A stretch of DNA of 57,905 nucleotides from a virus: positions 1 through 57,905 of IMG/VR virus record IMGVR_UViG_3300013006_000040; one strand, given 5' to 3'. The first letter of the stretch is position 1; the number at the start of each line of letters is the position of its first letter. The translations under genes were made by a program, and so were the position numbers. Under the pieces are notes generated by a model. That model was given only the letters and a program-made list of their open reading frames with translations. It made no database searches and was not told the DNA's origin. Positions 19,368 to 57,905 of the stretch are shown one piece after another.

Positions 19368-19368
19368 A

Positions 19369-20457: not shown

Positions 20458-20458
20458 A

Positions 20459-25802: not shown

Positions 25803-26720
25803 TTACGTGTTATACGTCCCGGGGCCGATGTATGTTATTACTGTTTTGCTGCCGGCAGTTGTGATACTAGAAGAACCTGGAGCAGAACCCGGATATTTTG
25901 CAGTAGGTATAGCTATAATACAAGCGCCGCCCCCACCCTGGCCGCCCACCATGGTTGGGCTATTTCCAGGTCCCATATTGCCAGGTACTGCTCCATTACC
26001 TGTACCTGGAGCGCCGGCTATCCCTATAGCGGGAGAGGTCCAGATTTGCGGATTAGTATTTCCACCTCGCCCATATGTAACAGTATTAACTGGCCATGTA
26101 TAACCTGCGCCACCTCCGCCACCACCCGTGCCTGGGTTAGGACCCTGGCCGCCAGCACTGGTTGCCCCACCGCCACCATAACCAGCCGAACTACCTCCGG
26201 GGCCGCCCCCTGGGTTTCCTAAATTCTGCGTTATAAAACTATATGAAGGTCCTAGATTTTGCAAGGGTTGTATACCGACACCAAATGCGCTAAAACCGCC
26301 CCCACCAGAACCACCTGGGCCGCCAGTATAAGTAACCGAAAGAGGAGATCCACTCGAACCTCCGCCTCCACCCACAGCGTTGATCGGCACACCCGGCCCA
26401 GTGTAAGGGGTTGTTAAATAACTATTTGACCCCATACCGCCAACGAAGCTTCCCGTGCCCCCACCACCTATAGTAAATGTAACAGGAAAAGATGCTCCTC
26501 CACCTGGCACATTAAAAGACCCAACTACTACGCCTCCGGCGCCACCCGCAGATCCTTGACCATATGCTGCACCATTACCGTTGCCCGCGCCGCCACCCCC
26601 ACCTACAAGCAAAAATTCTAGTGTCCATGGCGAATTACTACTGATGGGAAGAAGACTTGCAGAATTTAATCTGTTAATAGGATTAGCAAAATTTCTTGCC
26701 GCGTGGCGCTTAGTGGACAT
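25803..26720 (-). CDS. Glycine-rich adhesin, C gene of tail cassette 1
   Basis: 305 aa. N-terminal 'RLNSASL' cap (also in cassettes 2 and 3 as RLNAAANL and RVNSANL), then one glycine-rich domain from LEFLLVGGGGGAGNGN to the end. It overlaps the stop of the B gene by one base (TAATG). The cap probably docks on the B protein while the Gly-rich domain faces outward. Confidence 0.8.
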   Translation of the reverse strand: MSTKRHAARNFANPINRLNSASLLPISSNSPWTLEFLLVGGGGGAGNGNGAAYGQGSAGGAGGVVVGSFNVPGGGASFPVTFTIGGGGTGSFVGGMGSNSYLTTPYTGPGVPINAVGGGGGSSGSPLSVTYTGGPGGSGGGGFSAFGVGIQPLQNLGPSYSFITQNLGNPGGGPGGSSAGYGGGGATSAGGQGPNPGTGGGGGGAGYTWPVNTVTYGRGGNTNPQIWTSPAIGIAGAPGTGNGAVPGNMGPGNSPTMVGGQGGGGACIIAIPTAKYPGSAPGSSSITTAGSKTVITYIGPGTYNT

Positions 26721-27052
26721 TAATAAATCTCTGAGCCAAAAACGTTAAAGGATACATTACCCTGAAAAGAATAAACTTGTATTGTATCTGTTGCATCTAA
26801 AGTCATACCCATTGTTAATCCAATTGCATCTTGTGCTGGTAATGCTGTATCATATGCAATATATGAATTAGATGGAGTGGGAGTAATACCTCCCCTTAGT
26901 ACTGCAATTCTAAATGTTACATTAGTTGCAGATGTGTTACATATATTTAATGTGGAAATAACAGCGCTATTTCCCGCAGGTACCGTATATAATGTCGCAT
27001 TTGCGTTTGCCGCAGGAAAAGCTTGCCCGAGAATTTTATATTTAATTGCCAT
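26720..27052 (-). CDS. 110 aa tail protein, B gene of tail cassette 1
   Basis: 110 aa: YKILGQAFP, LYTVPAGNSAVISTLNIC, ALPAQDAIGLTMGMTL, VYSFQGNVSFNVFGSEIY. Three paralogues (here, 43920 and 46471) keep the blocks 'YTVPAG-SA-IST-N-CN', 'LPAQD' and 'YSFQGNVSF--FG-E'. The family is known from T4-like marine phages; all-beta, likely trimeric connector. AAGGAAACAAA precedes the ATG. Confidence 0.8.
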   Translation of the reverse strand: MAIKYKILGQAFPAANANATLYTVPAGNSAVISTLNICNTSATNVTFRIAVLRGGITPTPSNSYIAYDTALPAQDAIGLTMGMTLDATDTIQVYSFQGNVSFNVFGSEIY

Positions 27053-31274: not shown

Positions 31275-31741
31275 TTAACATCTATCACATGAGCTTCCAC
31301 CCCATAACCTACAGTAGTTGCTCTAGTATTTCCGGCTACTAAGTGGTGATGGGTTTGACCTTGTGCGTCAGTATGTCTATATACGATTGGTCTATCTATA
31401 CCACCACCTAGTTTCATTTGAGATTTAACTCTGTTAACTTTTTCCTTATCCTCGACTGCTTTTACTCCCTGACCAATTTCTGAATTATTGACATTAGTTC
31501 CAGGTTTTATTTTCTCAATTTTTGATGAGGATAGAGCAGCAGTAAACGAATCCTTATCCTTAGCAAATTTATGAATTGCTGATGCTATTACAGGATGAAC
31601 ATCACTCATATGTCCGGATTTTATTGCATTACTTTGGACAACATTCTCATTATGCTCCTCATCTGAGAGCCTTTGCGGGTTTGGTTTTTTATATGTTACA
31701 GGTGTAACCTCTTCGTCTATAAATTCTTTAAATTGTTTCAT
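31271..31741 (-). CDS. Protein with a ParB/Srx-like C-terminal segment
   Basis: 156 aa starting MKQFKEFIDEEVTPVTYK, a start type often seen in T4-like phage proteins. The C-terminal part PIVYRHTDAQGQTHHHLVAG followed by NTRATTVGYGVEAHVIDV looks like the ParB/sulfiredoxin core ('h.V.R..DG.Y.LVAGNTRL'). The middle is charged. ATGA overlap with nrdB. A DNA-binding, nuclease or nucleotide-hydrolysing role is possible. Confidence 0.68.
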   Translation of the reverse strand: MKQFKEFIDEEVTPVTYKKPNPQRLSDEEHNENVVQSNAIKSGHMSDVHPVIASAIHKFAKDKDSFTAALSSSKIEKIKPGTNVNNSEIGQGVKAVEDKEKVNRVKSQMKLGGGIDRPIVYRHTDAQGQTHHHLVAGNTRATTVGYGVEAHVIDVK

Positions 31742-32721
31742 GCAGCCTTTCCCCATACATCATGCCAGTCGCCAGACAAGGCACCTTTGGCGTAGTCTGT
31801 TGCTCTGTTCTCAAAGAAATTAGTATGCGTTGGAGCATTAATCATTTCTTCAACCCAGGGTAAAGGATTCTTTTTACGCTTGAAGATACCTTTTAGTCCA
31901 AGACTAATTAGACGTCTATCAGCAATGTAGCGAATATATTCCTTTACATCATGCTCTGTCAACCCTTCGATAGCGCCAGATTTGAAAGACAGTTCAATAA
32001 ACTTATCTTCAAGACTAACCATCTTCTCCGCAATCGAGTAGATCTTTTCTTTGAGAGTATCATTCCATATCTCCTTATTTTCTTCGATGTAGGTACGGAA
32101 TAATTTAATCATGCCTTCAGCGTGTTGTGTCTCATCCACAATAGACCAGGTAACAATTTGTCCCATGCCTCTCATTTTACCTGTACGAGGAAAGTTAAGT
32201 AACATAATAAAGGAACTGAACAGTTGCATACCTTCGGTGAATGCGCTAAACACAGCAATATGTTCCGCAGTTGAGGCAATCGTACCGTTCTTAGATGAGA
32301 TATCAAGAACAAAGTCATGCTTGTCTTTCATTTCCTGATACTCAAGAAATTGATTATATGTTGTCTCAGGCAATCCCAAGGTTTCAATCAGATGGGAATA
32401 TGCTGCAATGTGCAATGCTTCACGAGCTGCAAAGCCCATTAGCATCATTCTTATCTCAGGTTGCGGAAAGTGAGGTAGATAATTATTGACATATCCACCA
32501 GCAACATCAATATCTCCCTGAGTAAAGAATCGGAAGATGTGTGTAAGGAATTGTTTTTCTTCATTTGATAACTTCTTTTTCCAATCTTTAACATCCTCGT
32601 GCATCGGTACTTCAGTATGTAACCAATGGCTTTGCTCATGCTTTAGCCATGCATCATATGCCCAAGGGTAATTAAAGGGTTTAAACGAATTTCTATCATC
32701 CGTCATTCTTGTCTTTTTCAT
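31738..32721 (-). CDS. nrdB: Class Ia ribonucleotide reductase, beta subunit
   Basis: 327 aa. It holds the diiron-tyrosyl radical that starts ribonucleotide reduction. Ligands are all visible: Asp70 (FTQGD), Glu101 and His104 in REALHIAAY, Glu163 (FTEGM), Glu197 and His200 in DETQH. The radical Tyr108 is present, seven residues after Glu101 as in E. coli. It sits with two A-type Fe-S carriers upstream and shares the block with nrdA. AAAAGG precedes the ATG. Makes dNTPs for phage DNA. Confidence 0.95.
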   Translation of the reverse strand: MKKTRMTDDRNSFKPFNYPWAYDAWLKHEQSHWLHTEVPMHEDVKDWKKKLSNEEKQFLTHIFRFFTQGDIDVAGGYVNNYLPHFPQPEIRMMLMGFAAREALHIAAYSHLIETLGLPETTYNQFLEYQEMKDKHDFVLDISSKNGTIASTAEHIAVFSAFTEGMQLFSSFIMLLNFPRTGKMRGMGQIVTWSIVDETQHAEGMIKLFRTYIEENKEIWNDTLKEKIYSIAEKMVSLEDKFIELSFKSGAIEGLTEHDVKEYIRYIADRRLISLGLKGIFKRKKNPLPWVEEMINAPTHTNFFENRATDYAKGALSGDWHDVWGKAA

Positions 32722-34814: not shown

Positions 34815-36626
34815 TTAACCCTCGCATGCCAAACAAGTATCGCCCTCTATCATCGCCTTCATATCTAATTCTTTGATAACTTCTCTTTCGATTCTCTTAG
34901 AGACTTTATCTGCCTTGCCGATCTTTTCAGAACGACAATAGTAAAGGGTTTTTAATCCCTGCTTCCATGCTAGAAAATGAACAGCATGTAGGTATTTAAT
35001 ATTTGCATCTGGTCTAAAGAATAGATTAACAGACTGCGCTTGATCTATATATTGTTGTCTATCGGCAGCATGCTGGATAACCCAACGCTGGTCAATTTCC
35101 ATAGATGTTTTAAATACATCTTTATCCCAATCAGACATCCAAGTCAGGTGTTGCACTGAACCATCATTAGCAATGATAGATGACCAAATTTGATTATACT
35201 CATCCTGACTAATAAGATGACTGTCGTCTGACAAGTGGTCTTGAATTACTTTATCCAACCATTTATTTTTATTTAACGACGATCCCGACAAAGTGTCTTG
35301 TCTATAAGCGTTAGCACGTAATGGCTCGACGGAAGGAGAAGTATTACCCATAATAATGGAAGAAGAAGCGTTAGGAGCGATAGCAAGCATGTGAGAAAAA
35401 CGCCTTCCCGTACCTGCAGCATCGGGCGCCTCGCCTCTTTCATGTCCCAATTTGAGGTTTGCATTATCTAATCCTGTTCTAATATGTTTAAAAATTTGGT
35501 GGTTTCTTCCCACAGCCATTGCGCTTTCCCATGGAATGCTATTCTTTTGTAAATATGCATGCCAGCCTAAGGCTCCAATACCAATGCTACGCTCACGAGT
35601 AGCAGAGTAAATAGCCCTGGAAATGGCACTAGGTGCATTATCAATAAAATACTGTAAAACATTATCAAGCATCTCAGCAACATCACGAAGGAAGAGAGCG
35701 TCAGATTTCCATTCATCATAGTACTCCAAATTCAAAGATGATAAACAACATACCGCTGTACGCTCTTTATCAGTAGGCAAAATAATCTCAGAACATAAAT
35801 TAGATTGCTTAATGCTTAGACCAAGTTTCTTTTGGAAGTCTGGCATTGCTCTGTTACTTGTATCAATGAAATGTAAATAAGGTTCACCTGTTTGCATTCT
35901 CATTTCTAAAATACGTTGCCACAATTCTCTAGCAGAAATAGTATCACGTACTACTCCAGAATGGGGATCTTTTAATTCCCATGTGTCATTTGCGTCTTTG
36001 TCCAACATACACTTCTCAACCAACTGCATAAAGTCATCAGTGATATTGATACCGTGATGCAAATTAAGTGTCCTCATATTAGGATCACCTGTTGGTTTTC
36101 TCATCTCTAAGAAGATAAGGATATCGGGATGAGAAATATCAAGATAAGCAGCATAAGACCCCCGCCTCGTCCGCCCTTGTCTGTATGCCAAACTACTAGC
36201 GTCATAAGTGCGAAGATGAGGCATAACGCCAACGCTTTTATCATCTGCTGATCTGATACCAATTCCAATTCCAACTCCTCCGCCCAGCATGCTGAGCCAA
36301 TTTACTTCTGCGAGAGTATTAACCAAGCCTTCTGCACTGTCATCCAAATATGGTAAAAAACAAGATATAGGCAACCCACGCTTGCTACGACCAAAGCTAA
36401 GAATGGGAGTAGAATAAGAAAGCCAATGCTTGGACGAATACTCATAAAGTCGTTGTGCATGCTTTGCATTAGAGCCAAACGCTTTTGATACATATGCAAA
36501 CCTTTCTTGAGGCGATGCCTCATCATCTTTCATGTAACTTTCTTTTAATCTTTTAATTCCCAATTCATCAAACAAACTATCTCTAGTATAATTGACATTT
36601 ATCCCATGGACTACATCTTTAGTCAT
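34815..36626 (-). CDS. nrdA: Class Ia ribonucleotide reductase, alpha subunit
   Basis: 603 aa. It reduces ribonucleotides using the radical from NrdB. Key residues: Cys89 in PISCFLP (redox), Asn276, Cys278 and Glu280 in QSNLCSEIILP (active site), Cys293/294 in TAVCCLSSL (partner Cys), APNASSSIIMGNTSPS, and a C-terminal CLAC tail for re-reduction. The N-terminal ATP cone of bacterial NrdA is missing, as in many phage forms, so dATP inhibition is probably lost. GGAG precedes the ATG. Confidence 0.96.
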   Translation of the reverse strand: MTKDVVHGINVNYTRDSLFDELGIKRLKESYMKDDEASPQERFAYVSKAFGSNAKHAQRLYEYSSKHWLSYSTPILSFGRSKRGLPISCFLPYLDDSAEGLVNTLAEVNWLSMLGGGVGIGIGIRSADDKSVGVMPHLRTYDASSLAYRQGRTRRGSYAAYLDISHPDILIFLEMRKPTGDPNMRTLNLHHGINITDDFMQLVEKCMLDKDANDTWELKDPHSGVVRDTISARELWQRILEMRMQTGEPYLHFIDTSNRAMPDFQKKLGLSIKQSNLCSEIILPTDKERTAVCCLSSLNLEYYDEWKSDALFLRDVAEMLDNVLQYFIDNAPSAISRAIYSATRERSIGIGALGWHAYLQKNSIPWESAMAVGRNHQIFKHIRTGLDNANLKLGHERGEAPDAAGTGRRFSHMLAIAPNASSSIIMGNTSPSVEPLRANAYRQDTLSGSSLNKNKWLDKVIQDHLSDDSHLISQDEYNQIWSSIIANDGSVQHLTWMSDWDKDVFKTSMEIDQRWVIQHAADRQQYIDQAQSVNLFFRPDANIKYLHAVHFLAWKQGLKTLYYCRSEKIGKADKVSKRIEREVIKELDMKAMIEGDTCLACEG

Positions 36627-38721: not shown

Positions 38722-39744
38722 TTAACACCTTTTCCATTCTGTAAATTTCATTTTAGCTTCCAAACCTGAGAATACATTCTTTGCCACAATCTTTTTAGCA
38801 TCAATGCCATTCTCAACCATTTCATTTATGTCCTTTTCTACAATGTTCTGAGGCCATATTACTACATTATAATGCCTTTCTATCACCTTGTCAAGCACTC
38901 GGACAACATCCTTATTTCTGGGCTGGTTATCAATAATCATAACCAATTTATCTTTTGGCAAATCCAATAGTTCCATTTTACCGAAAGATGTACCACCTAC
39001 TGCGATTGCATTTGGTAAGAACAAACTATCCAACGGACCCTCGGTTACATAGATTGTTTTGGTTTTGTCTACCTCATTCATACCAAATATTAATTGATCG
39101 TCTTCTTTAATTTTGATAACCAAATATCTTAATGATTCTCCTCGCAACCCTCTGCAAGTTACACCTGAGAGTTGACCGATATTGTTATAAAACGGAATAA
39201 CCAATCTGGGTTCTTCTGTTGTTATTTTGTCTTTGTATTTATCAGACAATTGCACAATGTCCTTTATATTAGGAATAAAGTACAATCGTTTGAACATCTC
39301 TCTGGGGATTTTTCTTTTAAGACAGAACTGAACTGCTTCATTGTCTTCAGGCAAAGTATCAAGCCTATCCAATACTTTATCTAATAATGTCTCTTCCTTC
39401 TTCTCAAAGACAGGTTCGGACATTCTAAATTTATCTTCAATCTTTTGATGCGGCTTGTTCATTGGCATGCCCTCATTATATCGTTCCATTACATACTGGT
39501 TATACTGAAAACCATCTAGTTGTTTTAGGAATGATCCAAAGTGCATGGACACACTGCAATTATGACACTTATAATATAAGTCATTTTTAGCAACATAAAA
39601 ATAACCACGAGTCTTACTTTGCTTTTTGGAAGAGTCTCCGCACAAGATACATCTGCAGTTATAAAGACGTTCGCTCTTCTGTTTGAACAGAGGCAAACGG
39701 TTACTTATTAGTTTGAGATATTTAAGATCAGTGAATAAAGACAA
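38722..39744 (-). CDS. DNA primase, T4 gp61-like
   Basis: 340 aa. It makes RNA primers for lagging-strand synthesis with the gp41-type helicase. The N-terminal zinc ribbon uses Cys32/Cys35 (CILCGDS) and Cys60/Cys63 (YKCHNCS). A TOPRIM fold follows: IYVTEGPLDSLF with Glu235, AVGGTSFG, and MIIDNQPRNKD with the acidic pair at 272 and 279. The start is a TTG with a strong GGGAG seven nt upstream. Driven by a sigma-70 promoter at 39769-39797. Confidence 0.92.
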   Translation of the reverse strand: MSLFTDLKYLKLISNRLPLFKQKSERLYNCRCILCGDSSKKQSKTRGYFYVAKNDLYYKCHNCSVSMHFGSFLKQLDGFQYNQYVMERYNEGMPMNKPHQKIEDKFRMSEPVFEKKEETLLDKVLDRLDTLPEDNEAVQFCLKRKIPREMFKRLYFIPNIKDIVQLSDKYKDKITTEEPRLVIPFYNNIGQLSGVTCRGLRGESLRYLVIKIKEDDQLIFGMNEVDKTKTIYVTEGPLDSLFLPNAIAVGGTSFGKMELLDLPKDKLVMIIDNQPRNKDVVRVLDKVIERHYNVVIWPQNIVEKDINEMVENGIDAKKIVAKNVFSGLEAKMKFTEWKRC

Positions 39745-43011: not shown

Positions 43012-43920
43012 TTAGAATGTTATTGTTCCTGAAGCACTAAATTTATAAACTCTATATCCACCGGAAGTAGAATATATTACATTGCTACCTGTGTTTGCAG
43101 TTGCAATTGGATATGCTGTTGGATATCTAAGAACTACAATACCTGAGCCACCTTGTCCTCCAGCAAACGTAGACCAGTGACCTGCTCCACCCCCACCTCC
43201 AGTATATTCATTTCCTGCTGTCCCGAAAGTACCGTTTCCGCCTGGGCCCCCTCCGCCTTGTCCTCCGAGTGCCCACTGCCCATTTGATGCACCCCCACCG
43301 CCGCCGGCATAATAACTTACACTTCCGGAAATTGATGATTGAACTCCAATCCCACCGACACCTACAACTTCTCCATTTGCTCCAATTCCGCCAGCTGCAC
43401 CCGCACCACCGCCACCAGAACCACCCGAGCCTGGAGGATATGTGCCTGTACCTGCACCACCCGGATATCCTTGTTGGCTTGGGCTTGGATATCCATAACC
43501 AGAACCTGCAGCTGCGGTAAGATCCTTACCTACACCACCGCCCGAACCTCCAGATCTTCCTGCTAAACCATTTGAACCACCGCCCCCTCCACCCACCGCA
43601 TTAAATATGCCAAAACTTCCTGAGATGTTGGAATTCGCTCCATTAGTCGCAATAGAATATGGCGCGCTGCCCGCAGGTGCGCCTGCTCCGCCGGCTCCGA
43701 CAAGTATAGTATAAGGCAAGGTCGTCGATACTGTTGCAGTTCCTGTCAATAGTCCACCCGCTCCGCCACCGCCGCCGCCGCCGGATCCACCACCGCCACC
43801 ACCGGCTACTATTAAGTATTCTACATTAAAATCATATCTAGAAAGAATTAATGATAAATTAGCAGCAGCATTGAGCCTTTGCGAAGAACCTCTTCTAGAA
43901 GTACCTAGCTTAAAGCCCAT
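43012..43920 (-). CDS. Glycine-rich adhesin, C gene of tail cassette 2
   Basis: 302 aa. Cap with 'SSQRLNAAANLSLIL', then VEYLIVAGGGGGGSGGGG and many GGxG loops, a GGSGIVVLRYP close, and a C-terminal strand (GGYRVYKFSASGTITF). The same layout as the C genes at 25803 and 45485 but with different loops. Starts one base inside the B stop (TAATG). Confidence 0.8.
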   Translation of the reverse strand: MGFKLGTSRRGSSQRLNAAANLSLILSRYDFNVEYLIVAGGGGGGSGGGGGGGAGGLLTGTATVSTTLPYTILVGAGGAGAPAGSAPYSIATNGANSNISGSFGIFNAVGGGGGGSNGLAGRSGGSGGGVGKDLTAAAGSGYGYPSPSQQGYPGGAGTGTYPPGSGGSGGGGAGAAGGIGANGEVVGVGGIGVQSSISGSVSYYAGGGGGASNGQWALGGQGGGGPGGNGTFGTAGNEYTGGGGGAGHWSTFAGGQGGSGIVVLRYPTAYPIATANTGSNVIYSTSGGYRVYKFSASGTITF

Positions 43921-44249
43921 TAGGTAATCTCCGTACCAAATGCTGCAAAACTTACGTTACCCTGAAATGAATATGCTGTAATAACATCTGTATTACCTAA
44001 AGTCATACCTAAAGATACAGCCATTGTGTCTTGTGCTGGAAGAGCAGAATCAAACACAATAAAATGTTTAGATGTACCCGTTACGCCTGCTGGTCTAATT
44101 GATAATCTAAATGTAACATTGGATGTAGATTGATTACATACATTTACTGTTGAAATAATTGCGCTGGTGCCGGCTGGAACAGTATACAAATTTACATTTG
44201 CACCTGCTGCTGGAATTTCTTGTCCTAAAACTTTATATGTATACGCCAT
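43920..44249 (-). CDS. 110 aa-type tail protein, B gene of tail cassette 2
   Basis: 109 aa: YKVLGQEIP, LYTVPAGTSAIISTVNVC, ALPAQDTMAVSLGMTL, YSFQGNVSFAAFGTEIT. Paralogue of 26720-27052 and 46471-46803. AAGGAAAAATAA precedes the ATG. Probably the connector between A and C. Confidence 0.8.
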   Translation of the reverse strand: MAYTYKVLGQEIPAAGANVNLYTVPAGTSAIISTVNVCNQSTSNVTFRLSIRPAGVTGTSKHFIVFDSALPAQDTMAVSLGMTLGNTDVITAYSFQGNVSFAAFGTEIT

Positions 44250-45484: not shown

Positions 45485-46471
45485 TTACCCTAGATAGCCT
45501 GTAGTGTCTATTAGATATCTAATAATAACTTTTCCAGAACCACCCGCGCCCGCAGAACCACCCGACCAATTACCGCCACCTCCACCGCCAGAATTAATGG
45601 TACCGGGTTGATTATTATTATTAGCATATGTGTCACCAAACCCTCCCCCGCCGGCGCCACCAGATCCACCGATATTTAGAGGAGAAAATGCATCCGATCC
45701 TCCACCGCCTCCTGCATAGTATGTAGAATATCCAGATATTGTAGATATGCCACCAGCGCCACCATCGCCAGCTTGAGGTCCAGAAGTACCTGCCGCTCCT
45801 CCACCACCACCGCCTACCCCATCACTACCCCCTACTCGAAGAGTCTTTGATACCCCAGGAGTAGCTGACCCCCCAGAATTTCCTTGCCCAGGTGTACCGT
45901 TACCGCCCACACCTCCATAAAAATTACCACCAGCACCGCCACCCGATCCGCCAGGCCTACCATTCTTTTGAGTATTTGCTGGAGAGGGTGTAGAATCTCC
46001 AACCCCGCCGCCGCCGCCACCGCCTAGCGATTGAATAGTTGAAGGTGTTACTGTACTATTGAAAATAATATTACTAGGCGAACCATCATTACCATAGGTA
46101 ACACTCGGGCCACCCGCACCGCCACCCCCGATTCGGATAACATTATTTGCTGTTTGTGTAAATGTTACGTTACCAGATAATATACCGCCACCGCCACCAC
46201 CTGCACCTCCTGCGGTAGCACCTGAACCGCCACCGCCAATAATTAAATAATCTATTACATTATAGGTAGGCGAGGTTACAGATAAACCGGTAATAGATAA
46301 ATTAGATGATGCATTAAATGAATGTATTCTGTAACCACCTACATTTGTTTGGATTCCGCCGGTCACCTGCATGGTAGAATAATATCTACTTGCGATAAAT
46401 GCTAGATTAGCAGAGTTTACTCTATTATTAATAGATACAGTACTTCTCTGCGAATGTCGACGAATTGGCAT
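45485..46471 (-). CDS. Glycine-rich adhesin, C gene of tail cassette 3
   Basis: 328 aa. Cap INNRVNSANLAFIASRYY, a strand linker ending with NVIDYLIIGGGGSGATAG, then Gly-rich loops ending GGSGKVIIRYL. Paralogue of the C genes of cassettes 1 and 2, with a longer linker. TAATG overlap with its B gene. Confidence 0.8.
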   Translation of the reverse strand: MPIRRHSQRSTVSINNRVNSANLAFIASRYYSTMQVTGGIQTNVGGYRIHSFNASSNLSITGLSVTSPTYNVIDYLIIGGGGSGATAGGAGGGGGGILSGNVTFTQTANNVIRIGGGGAGGPSVTYGNDGSPSNIIFNSTVTPSTIQSLGGGGGGGVGDSTPSPANTQKNGRPGGSGGGAGGNFYGGVGGNGTPGQGNSGGSATPGVSKTLRVGGSDGVGGGGGGAAGTSGPQAGDGGAGGISTISGYSTYYAGGGGGSDAFSPLNIGGSGGAGGGGFGDTYANNNNQPGTINSGGGGGGNWSGGSAGAGGSGKVIIRYLIDTTGYLG

Positions 46472-46803
46472 TAATTAACCTCTGAACCAAACAATGTAAA
46501 GGTTACATTGCCTTGAAATGAATATACTGTTATTTTATCTGTCGCCGCCAAAGTCATACCTAAAGAAAGACCTAATGCATCTTGTGCAGGTAATGCTGCA
46601 TCATATACTATTGCCTGCGATGTTGTGTTACCTGCCGCACCTGCAATTCTTGCATATACTCTAAATGTTACGTTGGATTGAGTAGTATTACATACATTTA
46701 TTGTGGAAATAATAGCACTGTTACCTGCAGGAACTGTGTATATGTCATAATTTGTAGCGTTTGTGGGCATTGCTTGCCCTAAAATTTTAAATGTTGTTGC
46801 CAT
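46471..46803 (-). CDS. 110 aa tail protein, B gene of tail cassette 3
   Basis: 110 aa: FKILGQAMP, IYTVPAGNSAIISTINVC, ALPAQDALGLSLGMTL, VYSFQGNVTFTLFGSEVN. Closer to cassette 1 B than to cassette 2 B in the C-terminal blocks. AAGGAAAAATT precedes the ATG. Confidence 0.8.
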   Translation of the reverse strand: MATTFKILGQAMPTNATNYDIYTVPAGNSAIISTINVCNTTQSNVTFRVYARIAGAAGNTTSQAIVYDAALPAQDALGLSLGMTLAATDKITVYSFQGNVTFTLFGSEVN

Positions 46804-47990: not shown

Positions 47991-50948
47991 TTAAACGTAC
48001 GGGTATCTAATAATAATAATACCCGAAGCGCCGCTGCCGCCCGCATAATTACCGCCGCCCCCCGATCCTCCAGAACCGCCGCCCCCAGTATTTTGCAATC
48101 CACTTAAACCTACGTTATCGTTTTGACCATTTGCTCCTCCACCATAACCTCCAAGTTTTCCACTATACACCGTCGGCCAACCGGTGGAGCCTGCGCCACC
48201 ACCAAAATATCCTTTACCGGATACATTGCTTACAGAATTGGTTACATTGGTTCCGTATCTATCAAAATTCGCAAAATATTTACCTCTACCACCTTGGCCT
48301 GGATATGTTGCGTCGTTATAAGCAAATCCGCTAGTGCCCATACCCCCACCAGAAGATCCGGCACCATTTCCTAAGTCACTTAAACCAAATGCACTTAATG
48401 TATTTCCAGATGCCCCGCCGTATCCTCGTATGTTAATATCCCCGTTATTATGAGACACGCAATATTGTCCCCGGAAACCTGTCTGTGCAAACCCAATCGT
48501 ACCGCCAGATAAAATACTTGAACTTGTACCATTCGCAGAATCACCTGCAGGATAACCTGTGCCTCCTGCGCCACCACCACCCACAAGCATACCAAAATTA
48601 TTTACAGTTGCGGTAATAGATCCGGTATTTCCATTACCGCCACCACCACCGCCTCCGCTATAAAATGTGCCGTTACCTGCAGCACCGCCGCCACCGGCAC
48701 CAATAACTAGATAATCCATAGAATTATTAGCAGGAGTAACAGTAGCTACTGAATTTACAAGTAAATTACCCGATGTAGTAAATGAATGATACTTATATCC
48801 ATTCACTATTGTTATATTTCCACCTGTTGCATTAATGTAGAAGTCTGAAACATTATATAGTACAACATTACTACTACTGGTTATTGATATTGGGCCTGTT
48901 GTAGAATCTTGTCTTATTTCTAATCCAAAAATCTTAGATACATCTAGTATTGCACTGCTATTTGTTTGCAGGGTGATCGTTGCACCCGTAGTATTTGCCG
49001 TAAATGAACCAGTATTTCCACCAATGAAATGCGAGGAATTTGCATTACCTGATGTAGAATAATATAATGTAGTACCGTTTGCATTTAGAACAGAAAGATT
49101 AAATATTACATTTCCGCCAGTTAATACGTTGGTTGAACTTGTTGTTAGAGTTGTAAAGTATTGTCCGGTAAATGGATATCGTATAATAACAATGCCAGAA
49201 CCGCCCGTTCCGCCCGCATTATATACTGATGGAACAGGAGTTGTGGCTGGAATACCTGCGCCACCTCCGCCTCCCCCAGTATTAATAGTACCAGGAGTGC
49301 CTCCTGAACCAGATCCACCTCCACCGCCTCCGCCAGCGCCACCGCCACCGGCATATCCAACGAAAGGCCCAGGCGTTGGGTGACCTCCGTTGGATCCTCC
49401 TCCGCCGCCACCAGCAAAATACCCGCTAGGGCCCCAAGTACCAAATGCTGTAGGATTTCTACCAACACCACCTGAAGCAGAAAAACTACCATATGGTTGT
49501 GGTGATTCATTAGTAGCTGCGCCACCCGCCCCACCCCCAGCAGCAGCATTTGAACCATTTGGACCTTGTGCAGAATTACCTGGGTATCCCTCTGTAGCAA
49601 TACCGGTTCCATTTGCTCCAGGTTGGCCGCCGCCACCCGAACCGCCAGGATAACCTACACTACCTGAATATCCGCCGGCACCGCCTCCTGTGGTCGAAAC
49701 ATTAGTCCAACTTGGTCCTGTGCCAGTAATTGAACTTGGATTTCCTTGTACACCTGGACTAGGACTAGATGGGGCGGTGCCACCGGCGCCAACTGTTATT
49801 GTATAATTTTGTCCCGCAGCAACATAATTTGCAGGTTGTGCTGTAGAACTTGGGCCACCTGATAATTCGCCTGATACATTTAATTTATAACCTCCGGCGC
49901 CTGCACCTGAGCCTTTACCTGCGTTATTTGTAGGTCCTCCGCCTCCCCCTCCTGCAACAACTAAATATTCAATAGCTCCGCCAGTTGTACCTATACCTGT
50001 AACAGATAGATTTGAAGATGTATTAAAGGTATGATACTTATAGCCATTAAGAACTGTTATATTACCGCCAGTAGCGGCCATTTGTGTTAGAGAAGAATCA
50101 TTTATTAATAAGTTATTACTTGTGGCTAATACTGTTCCTGTTACAGAATCTCTTCTTATTCTTACTCGGAAATCTACAGATGTTCCATATGGGACTGCTG
50201 AAGTTGTAACTAATGATATAGTATTAGAAACACTATTCATTCTAAATGAACCTGTATTTCCGCCAGTAAAGTTTGAGGTTGTTACGTTACCGGTGGTATC
50301 ATAATATAGCAATGTACCTGCAGATATATTAATAACATTCGCTGTTAATGTTAACGTACCACCCTCAGTTGCACTACTTGCGCTTTCAACAAAACTCAAT
50401 ACATTGTACTGATTGGATGTATCTAGAACTGTTACGTTGGATGATGTGATAACAACATTACCGTTAGTATTATTAGTTCTAATTTGCAGTGTAAACGCTT
50501 CAGTTGTTTCATCAAATAAAGATACGTCAGCGTTTGTAGTTAACCTAAGTGTTCCCACGTTATTTGCGATAGTAATTACACCAGTATTGCCACCAACAAA
50601 GTCATTGCTATTTACGTTGGCTGTTATTATAGAATTTGTAGTATAATATACATTAGTACCGTTTACAACATTAGATGTCGTTAATGTATATAATATTACG
50701 TTGCCCTCTGCTGCTGTAGTTGCATTTGCTGTTAAACTAACAATAGTTGTTGTATCAGGAATAGTAATAGTATTTGATGTGCCAATAACTGTGCCTGTAA
50801 ATCCTTCTTTGCGAAGTTTAACTACGAATGTTTTTGTACCTTCAAATGCAAAAGCTGATAAAGGCAAAACAATATTGGCCAAGCCACCTGCTACTGTGAC
50901 TGTACCTTGAAGCGCATTTGCTGCGAAATTACTTGCGAATATTGGCAT
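47991..50948 (-). CDS. Calx-beta-like and double glycine-rich tail protein
   Basis: 985 aa. It opens with the second half of a Calx-beta-like domain (ASNFAANALQGTVTVAGG, FEGTKTFVVKLRKEGFTG), followed by further complete Calx-beta-like repeats (VYYTTN..., DDETTEAF-type ends), then two glycine-rich domains with a Calx-like domain between them. The first half of that opening domain is at the end of the upstream gene. No ribosome site is obvious. Likely a receptor-facing tail protein. Confidence 0.78.
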   Translation of the reverse strand: MPIFASNFAANALQGTVTVAGGLANIVLPLSAFAFEGTKTFVVKLRKEGFTGTVIGTSNTITIPDTTTIVSLTANATTAAEGNVILYTLTTSNVVNGTNVYYTTNSIITANVNSNDFVGGNTGVITIANNVGTLRLTTNADVSLFDETTEAFTLQIRTNNTNGNVVITSSNVTVLDTSNQYNVLSFVESASSATEGGTLTLTANVINISAGTLLYYDTTGNVTTSNFTGGNTGSFRMNSVSNTISLVTTSAVPYGTSVDFRVRIRRDSVTGTVLATSNNLLINDSSLTQMAATGGNITVLNGYKYHTFNTSSNLSVTGIGTTGGAIEYLVVAGGGGGGPTNNAGKGSGAGAGGYKLNVSGELSGGPSSTAQPANYVAAGQNYTITVGAGGTAPSSPSPGVQGNPSSITGTGPSWTNVSTTGGGAGGYSGSVGYPGGSGGGGQPGANGTGIATEGYPGNSAQGPNGSNAAAGGGAGGAATNESPQPYGSFSASGGVGRNPTAFGTWGPSGYFAGGGGGGSNGGHPTPGPFVGYAGGGGAGGGGGGGSGSGGTPGTINTGGGGGGAGIPATTPVPSVYNAGGTGGSGIVIIRYPFTGQYFTTLTTSSTNVLTGGNVIFNLSVLNANGTTLYYSTSGNANSSHFIGGNTGSFTANTTGATITLQTNSSAILDVSKIFGLEIRQDSTTGPISITSSSNVVLYNVSDFYINATGGNITIVNGYKYHSFTTSGNLLVNSVATVTPANNSMDYLVIGAGGGGAAGNGTFYSGGGGGGGNGNTGSITATVNNFGMLVGGGGAGGTGYPAGDSANGTSSSILSGGTIGFAQTGFRGQYCVSHNNGDINIRGYGGASGNTLSAFGLSDLGNGAGSSGGGMGTSGFAYNDATYPGQGGRGKYFANFDRYGTNVTNSVSNVSGKGYFGGGAGSTGWPTVYSGKLGGYGGGANGQNDNVGLSGLQNTGGGGSGGSGGGGNYAGGSGASGIIIIRYPYV

Positions 50949-50952
50949 ATCT

Positions 50953-52572
50953 TTATTCTATGGTGTAATATAAAACGGTGCCTTCTGGCACTGAAGTATT
51001 AAATGTAACTATTGCTGTATTGGCAGCTGATACTGATGGAGACGTAAAACTTACAGTAGTTTGTTCAGTCTTTCTATATGATGTAAATACTGCTATAGAA
51101 TCAGCATTGCTTGAATTTGCATAACTTGCGTATAATGCATCATATTGTTTCAATGCTTTAGGTGATTGTAATATCTCAAGAGAGGATCCTGCGGGCACTT
51201 GCATATTATATGCCAAGTATGCTTTTGGAACTGCTGTTGTAGAGTTGGCAAAATATAATTTAACTGGAATGTTTGTTGGTTTTAGATTAACAAACTTTAT
51301 ACTTTCAATAACAAAATCTGTTGTGTCTGCTGTTACTAATGATACGTTTGAATTTGCATTTGCCAGTGTTTGACCTACGCCTACATAGGAAACATCATTT
51401 GTAATTGTTTCATAAGTTAAGTATGCGGATAAAATATTACTAGTGGGTGTAAAATTATTATCGAATCCTTGGAAGTATAATGAATCACCAGATTGTAAAA
51501 TTTGTGTTCTATTGATAAATTCAACAAATCCACCTAACGGAACACTGATTAAATTACCAAGATAAGCAGTATTGCCTGCAGAATATCTTACGTTAGCAGA
51601 AACATATGCCAAATTGCTTTCAGATATGTTTGTAATTTGTATAGATCTAATAATGAATCTATCTGCAGCAATTGAACCTGTAAATGTTACACCTGCCATA
51701 ATATTAGATACAGTATATGCTGTTGCGCCGGTTAAACTAATATTGTAATCGCCACCTGCGGCAGTGCTCTTGATTGTACCATCACCAAGAATAGAAATAC
51801 CTTTACCTGCAGTAAATGCTGTTCTGGCTCTTGTATTGGTGTAGTAAAGGTTTGACCCTTCTGCTAAATTGGTAGTGCTTAATCCTGCTAATGATACCGA
51901 TTGCGTATTTGCATTAATTTGACCATTGGCTTGTATGTTAATGCCTGTACCAGCCAATGTGGGTAACAATGCGATTACATTGGAATAAACTCTTGCATTA
52001 GTATAATAAAGATTTGTTAATTCTGTTACATTAGCAGTTGTTAAATCTGTTACATTTGCCTTTAATGCAAGATTACCTTGTATTGCTGAATAAACTCTAG
52101 CATTAGTATAATAAAGATTAGATCCTTCTGCAACATTTGATGTTGTCAAATACGGAAGAACTGCAGATATTACTCTGGCGTTAGTATAATAAAGATTAGA
52201 TCCCTCTGCAACATTTGATGTTGTCAAATACGGAAGAACTGCAGATATTACACGAGCGTTAGTATAATAAAGATTCGATCCCTCAGCAACATTAGATGTT
52301 GTTAATAATGAAGAAACAAACGATAATACTCTAGCGTTGGTATAATAAAGATTTGTTAACTCAGATACATTTGCTGTGGTTAGATCAGAAACATTAGCCT
52401 TTAAAGCCAAATTACCTGATACTGCAGCATTTACTCTGGCATTTGTAAAGTAAAGGTTAGTACCTTCGGTTATATCCGAAGTTGATAGAACCTGAGCCGT
52501 AGGCCAATCGTTTCCTGTTTGTCTAAGGAATACGTCAGCTGTATCAAATATACCTTTGTTGATTATCGTCAT
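50953..52572 (-). CDS. 'LYYTNARV'-repeat protein ending in half a Calx-beta-like domain
   Basis: 539 aa. N-terminus RQTGNDWPTAQVLSTSDITE, about eight LYYTNARV repeats (two of them almost identical at DNA level), a beta-rich C-terminal domain also found in the next A-like gene (ESIKFVNLKPTNIPVKLYFA), and the final SVPEGTVLYYTIE. The stop comes exactly where a Calx-beta-like domain would continue; the rest opens the next gene after 4 nt. Confidence 0.8.
   Translation of the reverse strand: MTIINKGIFDTADVFLRQTGNDWPTAQVLSTSDITEGTNLYFTNARVNAAVSGNLALKANVSDLTTANVSELTNLYYTNARVLSFVSSLLTTSNVAEGSNLYYTNARVISAVLPYLTTSNVAEGSNLYYTNARVISAVLPYLTTSNVAEGSNLYYTNARVYSAIQGNLALKANVTDLTTANVTELTNLYYTNARVYSNVIALLPTLAGTGINIQANGQINANTQSVSLAGLSTTNLAEGSNLYYTNTRARTAFTAGKGISILGDGTIKSTAAGGDYNISLTGATAYTVSNIMAGVTFTGSIAADRFIIRSIQITNISESNLAYVSANVRYSAGNTAYLGNLISVPLGGFVEFINRTQILQSGDSLYFQGFDNNFTPTSNILSAYLTYETITNDVSYVGVGQTLANANSNVSLVTADTTDFVIESIKFVNLKPTNIPVKLYFANSTTAVPKAYLAYNMQVPAGSSLEILQSPKALKQYDALYASYANSSNADSIAVFTSYRKTEQTTVSFTSPSVSAANTAIVTFNTSVPEGTVLYYTIE
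52141..52296 (-). repeat. Two 78 bp tandem repeats in the fibre gene
   Basis: Units start at 52141 and 52219 and encode 26 residues each (with SNVAEGSNLYYTNARV). They differ at only a few bases, far less than the other LYYTNARV units, so this is a recent duplication. Repeat number could vary between strains. Confidence 0.75.
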
Positions 52573-52602: not shown

Positions 52603-54789
52603 TTAGAATATTATGGTACCTGAACTGTAGAATGAATATATTAGGTTAGATCCGTCTGAGGTATAACTTACATTAGATCCTGTCACCGTTGCTGGTCTAA
52701 ATGCGCCAGGATATCGGAATATCGCTACACCCGATTCACCTGCAGCTCCACCTCCACCTAGACCCCCACCTTGGCCGCCTCTACCATAGTAGCCTGTACC
52801 CGGAGTTCCTGCGCCAGATGGTGATCCGCCACCTCCACCGCCAGCATAAACTACAGAAGTACCAGTAATTGATGACGGTAAACCATTTCCTCCAGAACCA
52901 CCTGGGCCGTCTGAATTTCCAGCTCCACCTATTGCACCAGCACCACCACCACCGCCACCGCCCCGTGTGCTACCTGAACCTGAACCTGAGCCACCCGGAT
53001 AACCTTGTTGTGTTGGACTTGGATATCCATAACCACTACCTATGCCGGCTCCGTCTGAGCCACCGCCACCTGAACCACCATTTGTAGTTCCACCCGTGTT
53101 TGAACGACCAGCGCCACCGCCAACTGTAATTAATAGATTGGATGTGGGACTAGATAATATTGTGTTAGCGCCACTAGTGGCTGAAGTAGTTGCGTATACT
53201 CCGGCTGCACCTGCCGCACCTACTGTAACGGTATAAGATGTGCCTGCAGTTACAGGATATGATGCCGATGTGGTAAATCCACCAGCACCACCGCCACCTC
53301 CAGAGCCAGCGCCTGACTGACCAAAGCCACCGCCACCGCCGCCTGCAACTAATAGATAATCTATGCTAGATGTACCTGCTACAGTTACGGGATAACGTAT
53401 AATAGCTATACCGGAACCGCCAGAACCAGCTAAATAAGATGGACTAGCTCCGCCTCCACCTCCACCGCCGGTATTTACGTTTCCGCCAAATGCCTGCAAA
53501 GCCTGAGGACCAGCCATTGCTCCACGACCACCACCACCAGATCCACCATCACCTGGGGTACCAGTATTTGCGTCAGTTGAGCCACCGCCCCCTCCAGAAA
53601 AATGTCTACCGGGTGCTGGCCCAGGTGTGCCATAAGATGAGGGTATACCTGCAAAGGTAGGAACAAGACCAATACCACCAACGCGAGGACCATTTTGAAA
53701 TCCATTAAATGTTGCACCTGCGCCACCTGCGCCACCGCCACCTGCGCTGGACTGTCCTATTGGATTGGAACCTATAATGCTTCCTCCAGGATAACCCTGT
53801 GAGCCTGCAATATTTAAACCTGGGCTGCCTATAGCCAGCCCTCCCGGGGCTCCTCCAGGACTATCACCTGCACCGCCACCACCTGATCCCCCAGGTTGAC
53901 CATTTTGCACAGGTGATACATAATCGTCACCGCCGCCGCCCCCAAATGCAATAGCACCAAATATACTCGTATTGGCTCCCTGACCGCCAAGTGTATTTCT
54001 GGCAGGGGCCGCAGTACCGCCGGCACCTACAATAATACTACTAGTACCAGAAATAGAAATATTTCCCATTAATATACCGCCTGCCCCTGCACCAGAGCCA
54101 GGGTATGGATTGGAAGCGCCTATTGCCCCTCCACCTCCACCCGCAACTAACATATAATCTATAGTAATGTTAGATGAAGGATTTGATATTACAAAATTAT
54201 TAGATGATTGGAATACGTGATACTTATATCCGCCGAATGTGAATGTGTCATTACCTCCAGATGCATTAATTTCTGCATTAGATGTATCTAATACGTTAAT
54301 AGTATTTGAAGTATAAACTATATTACCTGCAATATTACTTGTTCTAATATCAACTCTAAATGATTCTACACCTTCTGTTATATTATCTGCATTTGAATTA
54401 AATGTAAACGATCCTGTATTATTATTAATTGTTATAATACCAGTATTTGCACCTATAAAATCAGGAAGATTTATATTTGAGGTGTAGTAAACATTGGATC
54501 CGTTAACAGCATTTGCCGTTGTCAAGGTAAATGTCACTGCCTGTCCCTCATTAATTGAGGATACATTAGAAGTTAAACTAACAACAGAACTCGAATCCTG
54601 TAATGTTATCGTTGGAGATACTGCAAGTACTTCGCCGGTTGGACTACCGTTTCTTAATTTAATTACAAAAGATTTGTTACCTTCTAGTGCATAAGGAATA
54701 GTATCAAGTGAGATATTTGCAAAGCCGTTAATAACACTAACGGTGCCCGATAATGAGTTTGATCTAAAATTACTTGCGGAGATTGGCAT
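52603..54789 (-). CDS. Calx-beta-like and double glycine-rich tail protein
   Basis: 728 aa. It opens MPISASNFRSNSLSGTVSV, again the second half of a Calx-beta-like domain, ending EGNKSFVIKLRNGSPTG. One full Calx-like repeat (VYYTSNINLPDFIGANTG) and two Gly-rich domains follow. Paralogue of 47991-50948. No good ribosome site; translation is probably coupled to the upstream gene. Confidence 0.78.
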   Translation of the reverse strand: MPISASNFRSNSLSGTVSVINGFANISLDTIPYALEGNKSFVIKLRNGSPTGEVLAVSPTITLQDSSSVVSLTSNVSSINEGQAVTFTLTTANAVNGSNVYYTSNINLPDFIGANTGIITINNNTGSFTFNSNADNITEGVESFRVDIRTSNIAGNIVYTSNTINVLDTSNAEINASGGNDTFTFGGYKYHVFQSSNNFVISNPSSNITIDYMLVAGGGGGAIGASNPYPGSGAGAGGILMGNISISGTSSIIVGAGGTAAPARNTLGGQGANTSIFGAIAFGGGGGDDYVSPVQNGQPGGSGGGGAGDSPGGAPGGLAIGSPGLNIAGSQGYPGGSIIGSNPIGQSSAGGGGAGGAGATFNGFQNGPRVGGIGLVPTFAGIPSSYGTPGPAPGRHFSGGGGGSTDANTGTPGDGGSGGGGRGAMAGPQALQAFGGNVNTGGGGGGGASPSYLAGSGGSGIAIIRYPVTVAGTSSIDYLLVAGGGGGGFGQSGAGSGGGGGAGGFTTSASYPVTAGTSYTVTVGAAGAAGVYATTSATSGANTILSSPTSNLLITVGGGAGRSNTGGTTNGGSGGGGSDGAGIGSGYGYPSPTQQGYPGGSGSGSGSTRGGGGGGGAGAIGGAGNSDGPGGSGGNGLPSSITGTSVVYAGGGGGGSPSGAGTPGTGYYGRGGQGGGLGGGGAAGESGVAIFRYPGAFRPATVTGSNVSYTSDGSNLIYSFYSSGTIIF

Positions 54790-54793
54790 ATTC

Positions 54794-57700
54794 TTATTCT
54801 ATTGTGTAATATAAACCGGTGCCTTCGTTCGCAGAAGTGCCAAACGATGCTGTTATAGTATTTCCAGGTAATCCTGCGGAAGTATATGTTCCAATTGTAT
54901 ATGCCGCACCATATCTTGCTGATACAAATGCCGATACGCCATTAGTTGCTCCGCCAGTATAGCTCGCATATAATGCATCACCTTGATTTATACGCTTCGT
55001 AGATTGTAACAATTCTACAGATGTGTTAGGTGGTAATTGTAAACCAAATGCCAAATGAGCTTTTGGCACACCGTTTGCATCACCCCAATAACACGTAACG
55101 GGAACAGTTGTGGATTGAAGATTTACAAACTTAACACTTTCAATAATACTAAATGAGTTCGCGGAATTATATATCTTCGTATTAGTACCAGATGTAGCTA
55201 TCGTCTGACCTGTGCCCATATAACTATTATCGTTATAGAACGTCTCGTATGTTAGCATTACGGACATTAAATTCGCAGTAGCTGTACCTGAATTATTAAA
55301 TCCCTGCAAGTTAATTTGGTCGCCTGGTTGGAATATTTGATATGTTTTAATAAATTCCATTACTCCACCAGGTGCAACCGGGATTATATTTGCCATATAT
55401 GCTGTGTTACCTGTAGCATATAAAACATTACTTGATACTAATGCTGTTGCGCCAGATGTATTTACCAAATGCAATGAGCGTAATAAGAATCTATCATTTG
55501 CTGCAGTTGTTGGGAATGTTATTACTGGCGACATTGTTGCCAGTACGTTAGCTCCAACTGTGCCATCAATACCGGTGTTATACTGTGAAGAAGAACCTGT
55601 ATTATTAACAATACCGCCTTCACTAATAGTAATACCTTTACCTGCGGTGAATGCTGTTCTGACTCTAGTATTGGTGTAATAAAGATTTATACCCTCTGCA
55701 ACATTTGATGTAGTCTGATTAGATAATGAAATTACCTGTGCTGCAAGATTAACAAAGTCTGATTGAAGTATAGTAACATTAGATAAATCTAAGTTTGCAC
55801 TAATTCTACCATTTGCCTGAATAATAATATTTTGACCTGCCAATGTAGGCAATAATGCAAGCACATTGGAATAAACACGAGCATTTGTAAAGTATAGATT
55901 TGTACCTTCAACTACATTAGAAGTGATTAAATCGACTACATTTGCTTTGGTTGATAAATTACCCTGGATTGCCGCATAAACTCTTGCATTAGTATAATAT
56001 AAATTGCTACCCTCTACTACATTTGAAGTAGTTAAATAAGGTGTTATAGCTAGTGCAACGCGAGCATTTGTAAAGTATTGGTTAGTGCCTTCTGCTAAAT
56101 TAGCAGTTGTAAAGTTACTTAGTGTTCCCGCAGTGCCTGATACATTACCAAAGAATGTTGTTGCTGCAATATTAGCTAATCTAAATGATGCGTGAGCTGT
56201 ATCAATAAAGATGTTAGCATCGGGTTCTGGATCATAATTATCAAATACCTTGAATGTGCCATTGTCGGATGCGTCTCTAAAGAAACCACCGTGATGATAA
56301 ACACCATCATTATAATTAAATGCAAAGCCTATATCAGGATTCGAAACAGTGGAGTTCGAATTCAAATATATCATATTATCCGAAACGGATATATTATTTG
56401 CACCGTATGTAGTTACACCGCCGTATACAGTTAAGTTATTTGTAACACTAAGATTAAAGAATGTTACATTAGCAGTTGATGCTACATTCTGTCCAATTGA
56501 TATTGCACCTGTAGTTGTATCATAACTTACACCAGTGCCACCACTTAAAGCAGATCTTACTCTAGTATTGGTATAATATAAATTAGAATTTGATTCTAAT
56601 ACGTTAGCAGTAGTTAAAAGAGGAGTAACTGCAGTTATAACTCTACCATTGGTATAATATAAATTATTATTACCTTCGGTTATGCTATTAGTAGTCAAAT
56701 TACTAATAGTCGAATTTAAATTAGCAATTTCAAGATTTACATTTGCGCTAATTCTACCATTAGATTCAATTACAATATTATCGCCAGCAATAAATGCGGT
56801 TCTAACTCTAGAATTGGTATAGTATAAATTGACGTTTGCTTCTAATAAGTTTGCTGTAGTAAGTCCACTTAAAGATAATACAGTATTTGCAACATTTGCT
56901 GTTAGAGCAATATTGGCTGTGCCGGCGGTGTTAGCAAACAACGCAATATTTGCTGTTGTACCTGAGTCTATAGTGCCTGCAACAAAACTTGCACCATTCC
57001 AAATTAATATACCGTTGGTAGTAATACCTGTTGTATCGACGTCTGAAAATATATTAACACTTTGCTGGGATAAATTAGCAGTTACTCTTGCATTAGTGAA
57101 GTATTGATTAGTGCCTTCTGCTAAATTAGATGTAGTAAAATTAGATAATGAACTTATTGTACCTGTTACATTACCTACAAATGAGTTGGTAACTACAAGA
57201 TTGCCTGTAGTAATATTTGAAGCCGTAAGACTAACTAAGGTTAGACCCGTTTGCGCATTGCCTGATATCTTCTGACCACCGACATATAATGACTCTGCAC
57301 TTAAGTAAAAGTCTTTCCATTGTTTATCTAATGATCCAAAATTGAATGTGGAATCTAGAGACGGTATAATGTTACCAGTAATAAGTATATTACCAGAAGA
57401 GGCAAGCAAATTCCCGGTTTGAATATATGATGCGGATATTAAATTGGCACCTGTTAAGGAACCACCTGATCCTGCACCGAACGTAGTGCTACCAGATATG
57501 CTAACATTGCCTATAGTTGCATTACCTATAGCAATATTACCTGCTAATAATGCTATTACATTAGAATAAACTCTGGCATTGGTATAATATAAGTTTGTGC
57601 CTTCTGCTACATTTGAAGTAGTTAAGTATGGAAGGACTGCAGATATTACGCGAGCATTTGTATAGTAAAGATTGGAATTTGATTCTAATACGTTTGCCGT

Positions 57701-57905
57701 AGTTAAATAAGGAGTTACTGCTGATATAACACGAGCATTGGTATAATATAAATTAATACCTTCTGCTAAATTTGCTGTGGTGAAATTGGATAATGTACTT
57801 ACTGTACCAATTAAATTACCATATATCAATCTCGATATAATTGCATTACCTGCAAAAATATTTGCTGCAGTAAAATCTGTGGCTGTTCCGGTGGATGTTG
57901 TTACT
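54794..57905 (-). CDS. Long 'LYYTNARV'-repeat fibre protein, 5' end beyond window
   Basis: At least 1037 codons are open; the frame continues past 57829 to the right edge, so the N-terminus is missing. It has at least ten LYYTNARV-type repeats. A middle domain (SDNMIYLNSNSTVSNPDIGF, then GFFRDASDNGTFKVFDNY) is typical of marine T4-like tail fibres. The C-terminal domain matches that of the gene at 50953 and ends SANEGTGLYYTIE, with the same split Calx-beta-like boundary. Confidence 0.8.
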   Translation of the reverse strand, partial: VTTSTGTATDFTAANIFAGNAIISRLIYGNLIGTVSTLSNFTTANLAEGINLYYTNARVISAVTPYLTTANVLESNSNLYYTNARVISAVLPYLTTSNVAEGTNLYYTNARVYSNVIALLAGNIAIGNATIGNVSISGSTTFGAGSGGSLTGANLISASYIQTGNLLASSGNILITGNIIPSLDSTFNFGSLDKQWKDFYLSAESLYVGGQKISGNAQTGLTLVSLTASNITTGNLVVTNSFVGNVTGTISSLSNFTTSNLAEGTNQYFTNARVTANLSQQSVNIFSDVDTTGITTNGILIWNGASFVAGTIDSGTTANIALFANTAGTANIALTANVANTVLSLSGLTTANLLEANVNLYYTNSRVRTAFIAGDNIVIESNGRISANVNLEIANLNSTISNLTTNSITEGNNNLYYTNGRVITAVTPLLTTANVLESNSNLYYTNTRVRSALSGGTGVSYDTTTGAISIGQNVASTANVTFFNLSVTNNLTVYGGVTTYGANNISVSDNMIYLNSNSTVSNPDIGFAFNYNDGVYHHGGFFRDASDNGTFKVFDNYDPEPDANIFIDTAHASFRLANIAATTFFGNVSGTAGTLSNFTTANLAEGTNQYFTNARVALAITPYLTTSNVVEGSNLYYTNARVYAAIQGNLSTKANVVDLITSNVVEGTNLYFTNARVYSNVLALLPTLAGQNIIIQANGRISANLDLSNVTILQSDFVNLAAQVISLSNQTTSNVAEGINLYYTNTRVRTAFTAGKGITISEGGIVNNTGSSSQYNTGIDGTVGANVLATMSPVITFPTTAANDRFLLRSLHLVNTSGATALVSSNVLYATGNTAYMANIIPVAPGGVMEFIKTYQIFQPGDQINLQGFNNSGTATANLMSVMLTYETFYNDNSYMGTGQTIATSGTNTKIYNSANSFSIIESVKFVNLQSTTVPVTCYWGDANGVPKAHLAFGLQLPPNTSVELLQSTKRINQGDALYASYTGGATNGVSAFVSARYGAAYTIGTYTSAGLPGNTITASFGTSANEGTGLYYTIE

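Follow-up and report, generated by a model that had tools for sequence, protein, structure and literature searches.

In the long tail fibres of the phages T2 and S16 a gp37 trimer carries the glycine-rich adhesin gp38 at its tip; gp38 docks on gp37 through its N-terminus, which has to fit this partner (PMC12892980). The window analyzed here, the whole 57,905-nt stretch of a virus of bacteria, contains two gene pairs which resemble this system in that the genes are adjacent, a fibre gene is followed by the gene of a glycine-rich tip protein, and the products would be separate chains. As with gp37 and gp38, a Gly_rich_2 gene is found directly downstream of a fibre-PHROG gene. The comparison is a functional analogy only, and it differs in the proposed docking part, which here would be a divided Calx-beta-like unit. 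In a partial survey of the literature we met no phage fibre described as divided in this manner.

Two known ways of expressing neighbouring genes have to be considered for this locus. In the work of Huber and colleagues a spacing of −8 to +10 nt between genes served as a predictor of termination–reinitiation, and genes spaced in this way showed an enrichment of heteromeric-complex subunits (PMC10666635). The pairs described here are similar to these coupled genes in that stop and start of neighbouring genes are a few nucleotides apart and the products plausibly form a complex; they differ in that one domain is common to both products and that the Shine–Dalgarno sequence is missing. With programmed frameshifting in phage genes the locus shares two closely spaced structural reading frames in different frames, whereas here no slippery site is recognized, the frame relation varies and the start codon is conserved.

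All genes of both pairs are on the minus strand (Table 1); the name adhesin and the fold labels are given by resemblance. The upstream protein of copy 1 consists of LYYTNAR repeats followed by two beta domains and then the half-domain tail, and it matches PHROG 697 (structural protein) and PHROG 33244 (tail fiber). In both copies the fibre gene ends with ...EGTxLYYTIE-TAA and 4 nt further on the next gene begins with MPIxASNF, its start being in the +1 frame relative to the upstream gene. The fibre frame of copy 1 (52572–50953) closes with ...NTAIVTFNTSVPEGTVLYYTIE-TAA followed by AGAT, and the downstream frame opens at 50948 with ATG CCA ATA TTC GCA AGT AAT TTC. The sequence, coordinates and frame given for this junction in an earlier note on this DNA (gap of 4 nt, +1) are correct.

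Table 1. Positions of the two fibre–adhesin gene pairs, their junctions and the divided unit in the window
Feature	Position	Strand	Description and basis
Upstream fibre gene, copy 1	50953..52572	−	539 aa; open reading frame, ends ...SVPEGTVLYYTIE-TAA
Tail, copy 1	50956..51045	−	final 30 codons, encoding the initial strands of the divided Calx-beta-like unit; end is YYTIE
Junction, copy 1	50946..50955	−	TAA AGAT ATG; without Shine–Dalgarno (sequence and duplex energy)
Head, copy 1	50745..50948	−	codons 1–68 of the downstream gene; rest of the divided unit
Calx-beta-like unit 2, intact, internal reference	50412..50744	−	nine predicted strands and alignment
Downstream glycine-rich adhesin-like gene, copy 1	47991..50948	−	985 aa; Pfam Gly_rich_2 2.3e-15; PHROG 2295
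Upstream fibre gene, copy 2	54794..57829	−	open reading frame, open at the window edge; PHROG 697
Tail, copy 2	54797..54886	−	open reading frame and HHalign
Junction, copy 2	54787..54796	−	TAA GAAT ATG, preceded by the codon GAA; sequence and duplex energy
Head, copy 2	54586..54789	−	open reading frame and HHalign
Downstream glycine-rich adhesin-like gene, copy 2	52603..54789	−	728 aa; Pfam Gly_rich_2 5.8e-31

We joined the last 30 upstream residues (the tail) to the first 68 downstream residues (the head) for the window and the related loci. HHalign matches the joined sequences to intact unit 2 of these proteins along 93 columns at a probability of 95.8; the tail alone covers the first ~26 and the head alone the last ~56 positions of this unit. 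When the joined profile was compared with the intact unit of a naturally fused homologue together with its counterpart on contig G008, the score was 74 over 87 columns; joining the halves in the wrong order reduced this to 60.6 over 65 columns. We regard the naturally fused homologue, at the level of sequence, as the strongest support for one domain divided between two genes. The earlier reading of a single Calx-beta-like unit divided in this way, found twice, is upheld by the HHalign comparison with unit 2 and by the fused homologue. In an alignment with unjoined rows (A7) the upstream tails had fallen on unit 2, and we discarded it.

The units appear to be beta-sandwich repeat units like the Calx-beta domain (PF03160), from which they differ in that here a unit is divided between two genes. 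Neither the window proteins nor the joined units match PF03160 above the cut-off, and we therefore name the units Calx-beta-like only. The family matches L104 alone, a distant relative of these units (39.3 bits, cut-off 27). Among the Foldseek matches 3e9t (Calx CBD1) ranks 44th and 47th with an E value of about 3e-3 and a TM score by target of 0.53, among many other beta-sandwiches; the upstream region gave diffuse beta-sandwich matches only.

Structure prediction of the separate chains suggests that the two ends are incomplete by themselves. For the C-terminal region of the upstream protein two beta domains are predicted with a pLDDT of ~90, followed by the tail with ~45–55 and almost no strands, so that the tail alone is predicted to be disordered. 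In the downstream N-terminus unit 2 has nine strands, and of the divided unit 1 only the last short strands are formed, with a mean pLDDT for this region that is not low (about 80); the head alone is thus predicted to fold in part only. Both parts are under purifying selection: in three pairs dN/dS was 0.24, 0.18 and 0.36 in the tail, and in the head it was 0.25, 0.21 and 0.18 (the first value in each case being copy 1 against L005, and the third pair having very few changes). Therefore neither tail nor head is decaying. In the relatives we did not encounter the same gap lacking a shared domain on either side, nor did the two ends fold as complete domains in the separate-chain predictions.

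Eight distinct junctions were compared, namely copies 1 and 2 of the window, L005, L007 a, L007 b, L017, L081 and L102. L007 a, L007 b and L017 are the three junctions of contig G002, with near-identical forms on G003, G004, G005 and G007, and the related contigs are metagenomic and partial. The gap between stop and ATG is 4 nt in both window copies, L005, L007 a and L017, 1 nt in L007 b, 5 nt in L081 and 3 nt in L102, the last two gaps being seen on one contig each. The split falls at the same position in all eight, so that chance can be dismissed as its origin. A stop followed by an ATG 1–5 nt downstream is thus kept in all eight, and all three frame relations occur: six junctions fit +1, another would require +2 (or −1), and at the remaining one the two frames coincide, interrupted only by the stop. 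Read-through of the stop would connect the frames in L102 only and was rejected. A tblastn search of named phages found no split homologue.

The gaps of all eight junctions lie within the range of distances taken as predictive of termination–reinitiation. The duplex energy with the anti-Shine–Dalgarno sequence is +0.2 and −0.3 kcal/mol at the two window junctions, against a median of −3.1 kcal/mol for the window genes, which agrees with the earlier remark that there is no real ribosome site. Shine–Dalgarno pairing is absent at seven of the eight junction starts, and weak at L102 (−3.3); its absence would fit a downstream gene that depends on translation of the upstream one. Other window genes, too, start without Shine–Dalgarno sequence just after a stop, for example at 19367, 41080 and 22423, so that the stop–start spacing alone is ordinary in this genome. 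The earlier note had called either mode of expression unusual; this does not hold for the close spacing, which is common here and typical of translational coupling, and it does hold for the split domain itself. A T4-type late promoter (TATAAATA) was not enriched, with 5 occurrences seen and 9.5 expected.

The relatives show four arrangements of the gene boundary around unit 1. The boundary lies inside unit 1, mostly without Shine–Dalgarno sequence, in the eight junctions. It is missing in the fused genes of G005 and G007: a single 819-aa gene on G007 (L095/L173) encodes the fibre domain, an intact unit 1 and then the glycine-rich part, and G005 has the same fused open frame with 822 aa. Here the fused homologue with the intact unit sits beside a split paralogue on one contig. 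In L093/L094 the boundary precedes unit 1; the fibre domain is the last part of the upstream gene, and the unit in the downstream gene appears intact (from a single sequence, with an HHalign probability of 74). Finally, on G008 (2326–4077/4087) the boundary lies inside the next unit with a 9-nt gap and a strong Shine–Dalgarno sequence, AAGGAG, and the same contig also carries a pair divided within unit 1. In this locus (L172, 2326–4077 and 4087–6348) the cut runs through unit 2 and leaves unit 1 whole, the downstream part beginning with MPIPDNETRFFQLQIRTGS behind the strong Shine–Dalgarno sequence (TTAAGGAGTAGAAATG). Since this downstream gene restarts at an ordinary ribosome site, the arrangement supports separate chains. 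In MH319754 and MH319758 the upstream homologue ends before the tail and the next gene is without head; tail and head are thus present or absent together in the cases seen.

Two large structural proteins, L020 (4759–10404) and L021 (5995–8820), have N-termini in which only the final hairpin of a unit of this type is present (MKRFVVKLRKGG... and MSKQFVVRLRKGS...), and no first half of the unit could be recognized upstream. Possibly this hairpin is an N-terminal docking element, and there may be partial units that do without a partner.

We infer that fibre and adhesin are probably two separate chains made by termination–reinitiation, whose half-domains complete each other as the joint between fibre and adhesin. 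The ribosome would finish the fibre at UAA or UAG and restart at the AUG 1–5 nt further on, without Shine–Dalgarno sequence. Because it would restart directly behind the fibre stop in this way, the adhesin would be made in step with the fibre, and fibre shaft chain and glycine-rich adhesin chain would be produced in coupled amounts. The C-terminus of the fibre would contribute the first strands of the Calx-beta-like sandwich and the N-terminus of the adhesin the remainder, so that a single domain could form from both chains and keep the adhesin attached to the end of the fibre. For this reassembly we rely on homology and conservation.

The earlier note had considered both a restart at the ATG giving two chains and a +1 slip at the UAA. 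Programmed +1 frameshifting at GAA-UAA, fusing fibre and adhesin always or in a fraction of cases, would account for the +1 relation of six of the eight junctions, and the slip would give a smoothly joined unit (YYTIE-K-D/N-M-P). Furthermore, the codons TAC, ATA and GAA ahead of the stop are identical in six junctions. As the junction sequences are related this identity is weak evidence; synonymous identity over the junction region matches the expectation (10 columns seen, 8.9 expected), and there may be some local sequence constraint, perhaps from the initiation region. The sequence ATAGAATAR, conserved in most junctions, is not a known site, and by eye we recognized neither a slippery nor a stimulatory signal. 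Re-pairing of the GAA tRNA on AAU would also be poor. With gaps of 4, 1, 5 or 3 nt a +1 slip would leave two of the eight junctions, L081 and L102, unjoined, and an ATG close to the stop is kept at every junction. We therefore rejected the programmed +1 shift as general mechanism and consider frameshifting of this kind very improbable. The break is kept while the reading frame varies in the relatives, and two fitting chains are therefore likelier than a fusion by ribosome slip; the restart at the ATG is favoured, as stop and close ATG are retained in every frame.

There could also be two chains that do not reassemble, the tail being left over, in a disordered state, from an older fusion, and the head being a partial domain which stands alone or docks elsewhere. 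The disorder predicted for the isolated tail would fit this explanation, as would L020 and L021, which open with the last hairpin of a unit in the absence of an upstream half. However, both parts are constrained, the tail retains the F, T and YYTIE positions across the homologues, and homologues lacking one half also lack the other. We regard the lack of reassembly as unlikely, albeit worth keeping in mind. Errors of sequencing or assembly, or a disabling mutation of recent date, are negligible as explanations of the break. All split junctions come from metagenome assemblies, and any single one could contain a single-base indel, but the same stop–ATG junction recurs across different metagenomes and also across paralogues of about 45% identity, and dN/dS is well below 1 on either side of it.

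If fibre and adhesin are indeed joined by completing each other's half-domain, the locus would be a natural and conserved case of one beta-sandwich common to two adjacent phage genes, serving as fibre–tip joint, and it would explain how a separate adhesin is attached in this group of uncultivated phages. The compact split-domain pair would then be a candidate protein joint, with the fused homologue next to the split one on the same contig as a ready-made comparison. It would also mean that annotation based on open reading frames can cut one domain in two. More speculatively, the split beta-sandwich might be a general coupler. Paralogous fibre–adhesin pairs are present in the same phage (two in the window, three on a related contig), and it is conceivable, if rather doubtful at present, that the parts are kept compatible among these pairs, that shafts and tip adhesins could be swapped during evolution, or combined within a single virion, with no need of a covalent fusion, and that the boundary can move between repeat units.

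Several other loci of the window were noted. Three consecutive PHROG 2295 (glycine-rich type) genes lie at 14838–22423 with 1-nt gaps; there is no Shine–Dalgarno sequence at 19367 and a 1-nt gap at 20457, the spacing being as tight as at the junctions studied. Three genes of 109–110 aa (46471–46803, 43920–44249 and 26720–27052) are each followed by a gene at −1 nt overlap, and neither tail nor head was seen at these loci. By eye, the first of them is similar to one of the pair of beta domains at the C-terminal end of the fibre, and the gene behind it (45485–46471) is glycine-rich. Genes of the small and large subunits of ribonucleotide reductase are present at 31738–32721 and 34815–36626 (PHROG 86 and 84), and a DNA primase gene at 38722–39744.
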